Shown here in pieces: positions 8,137 to 9,910 of a DNA stretch of 44,878 nt. Positions within the stretch are counted from its first letter, which is position 1. Each line of letters opens with the position of its first letter. This DNA comes from Bacteroidota bacterium (GTDB lineage: Bacteria; Bacteroidota; Bacteroidia; Bacteroidales; JABHKC01). The stretch spans positions 1-44,878 of the forward strand of contig JABHKC010000004.1 in assembly GCA_018692315.1 (NCBI GenBank), in the 5' to 3' direction. The notes below the pieces were generated by a model that searched no databases, was not told where the DNA came from, and worked only from the letters and a program-made list of their open reading frames with translations. The position numbers and the translations under genes are program-made.

Positions 8137-8165
8137 TTGCAATTTTAAAAATATTGTTACATTTG
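8137..8165 (+). promoter_or_regulatory. Bacteroidota promoter of tryptophanase (TTG-N18-TACATTTG)
   Basis: TTG at 8137-8139 and TACATTTG at 8158-8165, 18 bases apart, match the phylum's -33/-7 consensus exactly. Transcription should begin a few bases after 8165, giving an untranslated leader of about 135 bases ahead of tnaA and placing the 19-codon leader ORF within about 10 bases of the 5' end. The rest of the 315-base gap behind recO (7993-8136) shows nothing else I can support. Confidence 0.75.
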
Positions 8166-8180
8166 CAATAAATATAAACT

Positions 8181-8240
8181 ATGAGAGAGATTGTAAAAGT
8201 TAAAAATAGATTTATAAATATTATTTGTCCTTGCTTCTAA
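8181..8240 (+). CDS. Candidate leader peptide upstream of tryptophanase (19 aa)
   Basis: A 19-codon ORF, MREIVKVKNRFINIICPCF, starts 16 bases after the -7 box of the tnaA promoter and ends 67 bases before the tnaA ATG. Its last codons (Cys-Pro-Cys-Phe-stop) form the loop of a 13-bp hairpin. In enterobacteria tryptophanase is preceded by TnaC, a 24-residue stalling peptide that needs Trp12, Asp16 and Pro24; this peptide has no Trp or Asp, so it is not a TnaC homologue by residues. A role as a stalling or attenuating leader is inferred from position and structure only. A chance ORF in AT-rich DNA remains possible. Confidence 0.4.
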   Translation: MREIVKVKNRFINIICPCF

Positions 8241-8251
8241 ATAATATTTAT
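8214..8251 (+). promoter_or_regulatory. 13-bp perfect hairpin over the end of the leader ORF
   Basis: ATAAATATTATTT (8214-8226) and AAATAATATTTAT (8239-8251) are perfect reverse complements around the pyrimidine-rich 12-base loop GTCCTTGCTTCT. The 5' arm carries leader codons for Ile-Asn-Ile-Ile-Cys, and the stop codon TAA (8238-8240) crosses from loop to 3' arm. A ribosome finishing or pausing on the leader would hold this stem open. The stem is all A/T, hence not very strong, and no U-tract follows, so an intrinsic terminator is unlikely by itself. Confidence 0.5.
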
Positions 8252-8307
8252 CATTCCCACTATTTATTTTTATTCAAATTATCATTTTACTTAAAGAAAA
8301 CAAAATT

Positions 8308-9684
8308 ATGAAATTACCATTTGCAGAATCATATAAAATCAAGATGGTTGAGTCTATCAAAAGAAGCACTAGAAATGAACGAGAGAAGTGGATAAAAGAA
8401 GCTAATTACAATTTATTCAATCTGAAAAGTGAACAGGTTTATATTGATCTTCTTACCGATTCTGGAACCGGCGCTATGAGCGATAAACAATGGTCGGCAA
8501 TGATGGTAGGAGACGAAAGCTATGCCGGAGCTAGTTCCTATTATAAGTATAAAAACATTATCAAAGAGCTTCTTGGTTTCGATTTCTTTCTACCAACTCA
8601 TCAAGGAAGAGCGGCAGAGAATGTTCTTTTCTCGGTGCTCCTGAAGGAAGGAAATTTAATTCCCGGCAACTCGCATTTCGACACAACAAAAGGACATATT
8701 GAATTTAGAAAAGCCGTAGCAATTGATTGTACTATCGACGAAGCTTTCGACACAGAAATAAATCATCCTTTCAAAGGAAATATTGATTTAGAAAAATTGG
8801 AAAATGTTTTGAAAAACAATCCCACAGAAAACATCCCAATCATATGCGTAACAGTAACTTGTAATTCTTCTGGAGGCCAGCCTGTTTCTATGCAAAATCT
8901 CAAAGATGTACATAGTTTAGCACAGAAATACGGAATTAAGATTTTGTTTGACTCTGCCCGTTTTGCCGAAAATGCCTATTTCATAAAAATAAGAGAAAAA
9001 GGTTATGAAAATCATACAATTAAGGAAATTGTAAAAGAAATGTTTCAGTATGCCAACTATGTTACTATGAGTAGCAAAAAAGATGGCATTGTAAATATGG
9101 GTGGTTTTATAGCATTTGATGACGAACAGGTTTTCAAAAATGCTTCACTTTTTAATATCATGTTCGAAGGCTATATTACTTACGGTGGAATGTCGGGACG
9201 CGATATGAATGCCGTAGCTCAAGGTTTAGACGAAGCTACTGAATTTGATTATCTCGAAACACGAATAAAGCAAGTTGAATATTTAGGGAATAAGCTCGAC
9301 GCATTTGGGATACATTTCCAGAAACCAGTAGGTGGACATGGAATTTATGTGAACGCAAATCATTTTTTTCCAAATGTCCCTAAAGACCAATATATTGCTC
9401 AAACTATTGCGGTAGAATTGTATCTTGAAGCTGGTGTTCGTGGCGTTGAAATTGGGACACTTTTAGCCGATAGAGATCCAGTTACGCGAGAAAACAGATA
9501 CCCATCAATAGAATATGTAAGGTTAGCTATTCCACGGCGTGTTTACACGAACAATCATATGGATGTAGTGGCAGTTGCTTTGAAAAACGTATTCGACAGA
9601 AGGAAAGAAATCTCAACTGGATACAAAATTGTTAAAGAAGCTGAAATTATGAGACACTTTACTATTGAACTGGAAAAGATTTAG
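8308..9684 (+). CDS. tnaA: Tryptophanase (beta-eliminating lyase)
   Basis: PLP enzyme that splits L-tryptophan into indole, pyruvate and ammonia; 458 aa, the usual family length. Visible motifs are DLLTDSGTGAMS, PTHQGRAAEN, SSGGQPVS, FDSARFAENAYFIK and MSSKKDG, whose second Lys (K258) is the expected Schiff-base lysine. Tyrosine phenol-lyase is close in sequence, and the MSDKQW segment resembles it. But the region that carries the phenol-lyase substrate residue Arg381 (MERG in Citrobacter) reads VEIG here, and the FDTT-x-GH segment is tryptophanase-like, so I favour tryptophanase. The gene stands alone between a canonical promoter with a structured leader and a strong terminator. No tnaB-type permease is adjacent. 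Indole output would make regulation by this leader biologically meaningful. Confidence 0.87.
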   Translation: MKLPFAESYKIKMVESIKRSTRNEREKWIKEANYNLFNLKSEQVYIDLLTDSGTGAMSDKQWSAMMVGDESYAGASSYYKYKNIIKELLGFDFFLPTHQGRAAENVLFSVLLKEGNLIPGNSHFDTTKGHIEFRKAVAIDCTIDEAFDTEINHPFKGNIDLEKLENVLKNNPTENIPIICVTVTCNSSGGQPVSMQNLKDVHSLAQKYGIKILFDSARFAENAYFIKIREKGYENHTIKEIVKEMFQYANYVTMSSKKDGIVNMGGFIAFDDEQVFKNASLFNIMFEGYITYGGMSGRDMNAVAQGLDEATEFDYLETRIKQVEYLGNKLDAFGIHFQKPVGGHGIYVNANHFFPNVPKDQYIAQTIAVELYLEAGVRGVEIGTLLADRDPVTRENRYPSIEYVRLAIPRRVYTNNHMDVVAVALKNVFDRRKEISTGYKIVKEAEIMRHFTIELEKI

Positions 9685-9835: not shown

Positions 9836-9836
9836 G

Positions 9837-9910
9837 TGGGCCCACCTGGGCTCGAACCAGGGACCACCTGATTATGAGTCAGGTGCTCTAACCAACTGAG
9901 CTATGGGCCC
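9837..9910 (-). tRNA. tRNA with CAU anticodon (Met elongator or Ile2)
   Basis: On the minus strand the sequence folds as a 74-nt tRNA. The acceptor stem GGGCCCA/TGGGCCC spans 9910-9904 and 9844-9838, followed by D arm GCTC...GAGC, anticodon stem CCTGA/TCAGG with loop CTCATAA, and T arm CCTGG-TTCGAGC-CCAGG. The discriminator is A at 9837 and CCA is not encoded. CAU can be elongator Met, or Ile2 when C34 is modified to lysidine by TilS. The loop CTCATAA occurs in both and I cannot separate them by eye. Confidence 0.95.

Follow-up and report, generated by a model that had tools for sequence, protein, structure and literature searches.

A conserved short open reading frame upstream of tnaA in Bacteroidales, a putative ribosome-arrest leader of tryptophanase

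By sequence comparison, a short open reading frame (ORF) with a conserved peptide core precedes the tryptophanase gene tnaA in most of the Bacteroidales upstream regions that we sampled. Bacteroidales are important indole makers in gut and sediments, and their tnaA leader is apparently undescribed. We regard it as probable (about 0.67) that this is a ribosome-arrest leader which senses tryptophan or another aromatic amino acid and controls read-through into tnaA, and that the ORF in front of tnaA in the DNA under study is a diverged or decayed copy of such a leader.

The tnaA locus of the window

The window, i.e. the whole 44.9-kb stretch of DNA analysed, contains the following features at tnaA.

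8137..8165, + strand: promoter of Bacteroidota type, with TTG at 8137-8139 (-33 element) and TACATTTG at 8158-8165 (-7 element), read from the sequence
8181..8240, + strand: putative leader ORF of 19 codons plus stop, MREIVKVKNRFINIICPCF, probable diverged counterpart of the Bacteroidales tnaA leader
8202..8222, + strand: codons for KNRFINI, equivalent to krrfLNI of the leader profile in the hmmsearch alignment
8214..8226, + strand: 5' arm of a perfect 13-bp stem, read from the sequence, without conservation in relatives
8239..8251, + strand: 3' arm of the same stem, read from the sequence
8241..8307, + strand: spacer from leader stop to tnaA, its first 40 nt with 6 C and 0 G; candidate Rho-loading or U-rich termination region
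8308..9684, + strand: tnaA, tryptophanase of 458 aa (NCBIfam tryptophanase TnaA NF053783, 862.6 bits, cut-off 750)

According to NCBIfam the enzyme is a PG1401-type tryptophanase. TTG and TACATTTG fit what we take to be the Bacteroidota -33/-7 consensus. The distance from TTTG to the ATG of the ORF is 15 nt and that from the ORF stop to the tnaA start 67 nt. The TAnnTTTG box is located before the ORF and is missing 20-52 nt before tnaA, as in the leader loci described below, so that the ORF should be transcribed. In a preliminary description of this locus the promoter, the 19-codon ORF, the perfect 13-bp stem and tnaA 67 nt further on had been pointed out, and all these positions were confirmed in the sequence. 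The residues of TnaC, the tryptophanase leader peptide of Escherichia coli, are indeed absent from the ORF, as had been said: it has no Trp, and its C-terminus is CPCF. Downstream, a tRNA-Met gene (anticodon cat, 9836-9910, - strand) converges on the 3' end of tnaA; Rfam matches in the window are to tRNA only, with none in the leader region.

In 878 of 5000 shuffles an ATG was followed by 18 or more sense codons, and the window ORF alone therefore proves nothing. The hairpin loop (12 nt, 8227-8238) begins with bases two and three of the first Cys codon, continues through the codons for Pro, Cys and Phe and closes with base one of the stop codon. Its stem is made up entirely of A-T pairs, and no T run follows directly. 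A 13-bp stem was reached in 3 of 500 dinucleotide shuffles, a figure that refers to a 185-nt stretch only, out of the 44.9 kb searched. The fold of 8172-8310 is only moderately better than that of shuffles (z -1.66, 11/200 as good), and the segment extending from 40 nt upstream to 25 nt downstream of the ORF stop has a z-score of -3.25.

Leader ORFs upstream of tnaA in Bacteroidales

The relatives comprised 80 named loci with TnaA 70-79% identical and, in addition, the upstream regions of further Bacteroidales genomes. Reduction of 200 upstream regions by identity of the last 130 nt left 175 distinct ones, the window included; L080 and L081, which have 2 nt and 26 nt of upstream sequence respectively, were counted as misses. 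A short ORF with the core [NHSTRK][IVL]K.RD was found in 139 of the 175 regions, as compared to none on the reverse strands and 0, 0, 0, 0, 2, 0, 0, 1, 1 and 0 in ten shuffled sets. Three near-variants with another first core residue (L059, L161 and L173) bring the total to 142/175. The consensus over these 142 leaders is [FY]-[LR]-N-I-K-x-R-D-x-[FY]. K, R and D were demanded by the core search itself; F or Y occurs two positions before N in 134/142, N itself in 134/142, and F or Y two positions after D in 139/142. Freeing K, R or D in turn with F/Y kept yielded no further ORF in the 33 other regions. Moreover, none of 20 upstream loci scanned, a subset of the 175, matched an Rfam family.

Since the codons of the conserved residues vary freely and the residues are fixed, selection acts on the peptide. 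For the conserved K and D, entropy is zero at codon positions 1 and 2 and near its maximum at position 3, with AAA/AAG at 83/59 and GAC/GAT at 74/68 among the 142 leaders, and the conserved Arg is encoded by six codons (AGR 81, CGN 61). The modal leader length is 26 residues (46/139), and intact leaders occur, for example, in Marinifilum, Labilibaculum and Parabacteroides sp. PF5-6. Most often 16 residues precede the core N (64/142) and four lie between D and the stop (72/142), with core-to-stop distances anywhere between 1 and 22 residues. With the first ATG taken as start, three leaders have only four residues before N, and leaders of 14 residues exist (MNYLNIKDRDAFLC).

The leaders are placed directly behind a promoter box. 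The end of a TAnnTTTG box falls 0-35 nt ahead of the leader start in 113 of 142 loci, as compared to 3 of 141 for a control stretch 100 nt further upstream, and such a box 20-52 nt before tnaA was seen in 3/142 leader loci versus 13/30 leaderless loci. From leader stop to tnaA the median is 76 nt, with a leader-to-tnaA range of 50-253 nt. Spacer composition was taken from the 98 of 142 leaders with 60-110 nt to tnaA. Between -70 and -40, C exceeds G in 69 of these loci and falls below it in 18, and between -40 and -20 in 70 and 11; for 65 control genes on the contigs of these loci the two intervals give 29 and 29, and 26 and 29. A lean to C is also seen in the leader ORFs themselves (87 versus 42) and, more weakly than in the leader spacers, in 29 leaderless tnaA genes (15 versus 9 and 16 versus 8 in the two intervals). 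Hairpins directly behind the leader stop are modestly enriched (mean z -0.97 versus -0.11 in the upstream control). A general intrinsic terminator was rejected, terminator-like hairpins being present behind the leader in only 17 of 143 loci versus 2-9 in shuffles. Such a C-rich spacer with few terminator-like sites would suit Rho better than a classical terminator, and the transcription-termination step of the leader model is, on these sequence features, weakly supported.

A hairpin as conserved switch was likewise rejected. From 20 nt before the leader start through to tnaA, stems of at least 13 bp are absent from all 142 leader loci (the longest has 12), and the longest stems lie at varied places. 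The hairpin of the window is private to it, is AT-rich and overlaps the end of the ORF; it is not a conserved element. Conservation of the stem among relatives, to which the preliminary description had looked, did not hold, and the hairpin as a working part of the control is unsupported, the evidence favouring a nascent-peptide mechanism. The more general proposal of a peptide-based control of indole production other than TnaC in Bacteroidota is, on sequence evidence, well supported for the order Bacteroidales, given the conserved leader ORF in 142/175 regions. The checks named in that description had a mixed outcome: leader codons of relatives show synonymous change, but the window ORF no longer has the core, and its stem is private.

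A profile (A1) was made from 72 of the 139 leader cores, near-duplicates and pieces shorter than 16 residues being left out. At an E of up to 0.01, matches were obtained in 183 of 386 Bacteroidales genomes, once each except for G282 with two matches. Many Bacteroidales that possess tnaA lack the leader, particularly those of one TnaA branch. Among the matches listed, 112 leader places had a known tnaA place with which they could be compared, and 110 of them lie at most 500 nt upstream of tnaA on the same strand; the leader of G171, 85 nt upstream of tnaA, raises this to 111. The last of the 112 belongs to G089, where the leader precedes an acyl-CoA-synthetase-like gene, itself followed by tnaA. 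There (L275, 333-2390) the leader and the acyl-CoA-synthetase-like gene are followed by tnaA on the same strand about 275 nt beyond, an arrangement suggestive of an operon for tryptophan fermentation in which pyruvate would be used to make ATP. Twenty further leader places were picked, five without a listed or nearby tnaA and 15 with the tnaA place unlisted; all of the latter 15, as read by eye, precede an ORF that begins like TnaA.

Genes other than tnaA stand behind the leader in a few genomes without a tnaA match, i.e. with none at E up to 1e-100. An IorA-like fused oxidoreductase follows in G190, G088 and G191 (TIGR03336, E 1e-78 to 1e-115, below cut-off) and an acyl-CoA-synthetase-like gene in G305 (acetate--CoA ligase models, below cut-off), so that the latter kind of gene is found behind the leader in two genomes in all (G305 and G089). 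G262 has a caprolactamase-alpha-like gene, which is below cut-off and cut by the locus end. Since the assemblies of G262 and G190 are 79% and 88% complete, tnaA may be missing from them. As judged by eye, the promoter box starts 73-76 nt before the core in these non-tnaA loci and in G089, and TTG and GTG starts in G190 and G088 would restore the modal 16 residues before N. G047 has a leader match with a thiolase-like gene 563 nt further on. Reuse of the leader in G131, G241, G269, G277 and G321, also without tnaA match, was rejected, as E values of 0.0026-0.0086 are at chance level over 386 genomes.

Outside Bacteroidales, 141 of 296 genomes matched the profile at E up to 1, with a best E of 0.005, which is near chance. 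The recurring flavobacterial match HIKNRD (L214, L215, L216, L223, L228) was discarded because, read by eye, it is antisense to the start of what we take to be an L-serine dehydratase gene; in three of the flavobacterial loci no start codon precedes it. Such antisense matches call for caution in profile searches with short peptides.

Some single loci deserve mention. In G159:C165 and G156:C529, tnaA has one internal TAA and a leader match in front. L029, L052 and L081 are MAGs titled Chlorobiota or Delongbacteria with a tnaA 72-75% identical to that of the window, in L029 and L052 together with the leader; mislabelling of these MAGs or transfer is possible. In L036, codons for K-I-Q-T-R-D (about 1360-1420, with tnaA at 1501) lie out of frame with the ATG ORFs, as seen by eye, and a TAnnTTTG box is found 38 nt before tnaA; possibly the leader is broken here and a new promoter bypasses it.

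The window ORF most likely is a diverged or decayed copy of the leader, as far as its sequence and setting indicate. On the leader profile its peptide scores 9.3 bits over the seven residues KNRFINI, as high a value being reached by 3 of 1000 shuffles, and the distances from box to ATG and from stop to tnaA are typical of the family. K-x-R-D is absent: I-C-P-C is found instead, with FINIICPCF in the place of the core, and the ORF may for this reason be inactive. The window genome has no match to the leader profile at E up to 0.01. A second intact leader in this genome was sought and rejected, 12 pattern matches being found versus 17 for a control pattern, and none of the ten inspected by eye being leader-like. 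In a TnaA tree of the 123 of 175 loci with full TnaA, the window pairs with the leader-bearing L004 (leader MQTETTKARNYLNIKDRDDF) at an SH-aLRT of 91, below the 95 mark. The next nearest rows, L036 and L039, are without leader, and the 14-row set around the window and L004 has nine rows with leader and four without, including L080 with its 2 nt of upstream sequence. Over the whole tree the leader label is clustered (14 changes versus a shuffled mean of 25.4). The TnaA nearest to that of the window is 79% identical, and no second genome from the genus or family of the window is among those compared. Loss of K-x-R from the window ORF by a plain 9-nt deletion would, judged by eye, agree with L016 and not with the nearer L004, and it is not claimed.

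Proposed mechanism and alternative explanations

In the proposed mechanism, plentiful tryptophan (or another aromatic amino acid) would be held by the nascent peptide in the ribosome tunnel, and the ribosome would halt on the core or immediately behind it. Halted there, it would cover the spacer and thereby prevent transcription termination, probably by Rho and at a hairpin in some loci, so that tnaA would be transcribed. The variable core-to-stop distance (1-22 residues) suggests an arrest that is determined by the core in the course of elongation, in contrast to that of E. coli TnaC. The entire sensor may consist of the core, as there are leaders of 14 residues, provided that they start at their first ATG. 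The substrates of IorA-type enzymes are 2-oxo acids derived from aromatic amino acids, and the pyruvate formed by tryptophanase can be turned into acetyl-CoA. Together with these enzyme roles, the leaders before IorA-like and acyl-CoA-synthetase-like genes point to tryptophan or aromatic amino acids as the signal. We incline slightly to the still wider proposal of an order-wide arrest peptide, [FY]xNIKxRDx[FY], which would have originated independently of TnaC, sense tryptophan or aromatic amino acids by elongation arrest at the core and serve as a portable module before tnaA, IorA-like and acyl-CoA-synthetase-like genes.

The part of the window in this picture could be questioned in two ways. 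Its ORF might be a functionless chance product of an AT-rich 5' UTR, even if the leader of the relatives is real. The frequency of ORFs of this length in shuffles, the missing core and the lack of a profile match in the window genome all speak for this, but the promoter-ORF-tnaA layout and spacing are those of the leaders, few shuffles reach its profile score, and its TnaA adjoins that of leader-bearing L004 in the tree, and we consider a mere chance ORF rather unlikely. Distinctly less probable in our judgement is a window-specific device, either a re-specified arrest peptide (FINIICPCF) or a position switch in which a ribosome at the stop melts the 13-bp hairpin. The rarity of such a stem in shuffles, the fold around the stop and the location of TAnnTTTG before the ORF and not next to tnaA would agree with it; against this, no leader locus has a stem as long, and the stem is of A-T pairs throughout, has no T run directly behind it and is known from a single genome.

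Two further alternatives accept the leader family and concern what it does. The stalled ribosome could protect or unfold the message and thus act on tnaA translation or mRNA stability, not on termination, which would explain why intrinsic terminators are not general and why hairpins behind the stop are only modestly enriched. This we hold to be unlikely, as leader loci show the C-rich, G-poor spacer more strongly than control genes do, as expected of Rho loading, and as the leader-to-tnaA distance is variable (50-253 nt). The ligand could also be another signal than tryptophan, namely phenylalanine, tyrosine, an indole compound or general starvation; in keeping with this, the leader is also found before IorA-like, acyl-CoA-synthetase-like and, once, caprolactamase-alpha-like genes, which are of uncertain substrate. 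Nevertheless 111 of the 112 compared and all 15 further places precede tnaA, the substrate of which is tryptophan, and we consider a different ligand rather unlikely.

Significance and relation to known systems

If this reading is true, Bacteroidales would possess a compact arrest system with few fixed residues and a very short peptide, without detectable kinship to TnaC. Whether unrelated peptides can build a tryptophan site in the ribosome tunnel, a question of convergence, would thereby become testable. As a marker, the leader could help to predict in which bacteria tryptophan induces indole formation, and it is perhaps a portable switch for Bacteroidales genetics.

Codon-counting attenuators of the trpL type likewise have a leader ORF with downstream structure, the latter being seen here in some loci. 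As Trp occurs in only 7 of the 142 leaders (and not in the window ORF), codon-counting attenuation is unlikely. SpeFL and other ligand-sensing arrest peptides are metabolite-sensing leaders before a metabolic gene, with another ligand and in another phylum; the likeness to the Bacteroidales leaders lies in the metabolite-sensing leader peptide with a metabolic gene behind it. In Proteus vulgaris, tryptophan reportedly inhibits elongation of the TnaC leader peptide, according to the title of a 2009 paper; by this title alone, the likeness is elongation arrest, as we infer for the Bacteroidales leaders.

Within Bacteroidota, a search of the open full-text literature, motif strings included, yielded no report of a tryptophanase leader peptide among the matches listed, judged by title and the start of the abstract, in a body of literature that mostly excludes subscription papers and preprints. 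In the excerpts at hand, tnaC is named only as an excluded search term (PMC8537960), the tna operon with its leader peptide is mentioned in an introduction citing E. coli work (PMC6426650), and a leader peptide is mentioned only in the reference list (PMC10382180). Candidate arrest peptides linked to secDF and ending in N-A-P or N-S-P are described for Bacteroidota in the excerpt of PMC10987492. They share with the present leaders that arrest-type upstream ORFs were found in Bacteroidota by genome survey, but, according to the same excerpt, they belong to export genes and have a C-terminal proline, whereas the tna-type leaders belong to catabolic genes and have the core NIKxRD.

The closest comparison is with E. 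coli TnaC, which, in the excerpt of PMC10941005, needs W12, D16, I19 and P24. In E. coli, tryptophan makes the ribosome halt at the stop codon of TnaC, and a ribosome halted there hides a rut site (excerpts of PMC10941005 and PMC8429421). The residues that define TnaC are not those conserved in Bacteroidales, where Trp is as rare as stated above and a terminal Pro is found in 1/142 leaders. TnaC arrests at the stop, whereas the Bacteroidales leaders vary in their core-to-stop distance. A likeness through the motif FNI was rejected: the score of E. coli TnaC on the leader profile is -2.5 bits, and 800 of 1000 TnaC shuffles equal or exceed it. Pfam and NCBIfam searches at E up to 10 gave no family for the window ORF and four leaders, but PF08053 and TIGR02616 for E. 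coli TnaC. Because of the missing family match, the profile score at shuffle level and the different conserved residues, we do not file the Bacteroidales leader as TnaC. By analogy it may nevertheless work like TnaC, with which it shares a short ORF between promoter and tnaA (24 residues in TnaC, modal 26 here), a presumed nascent-peptide arrest with free ligand and a spacer behind the stop that might be able to load Rho.
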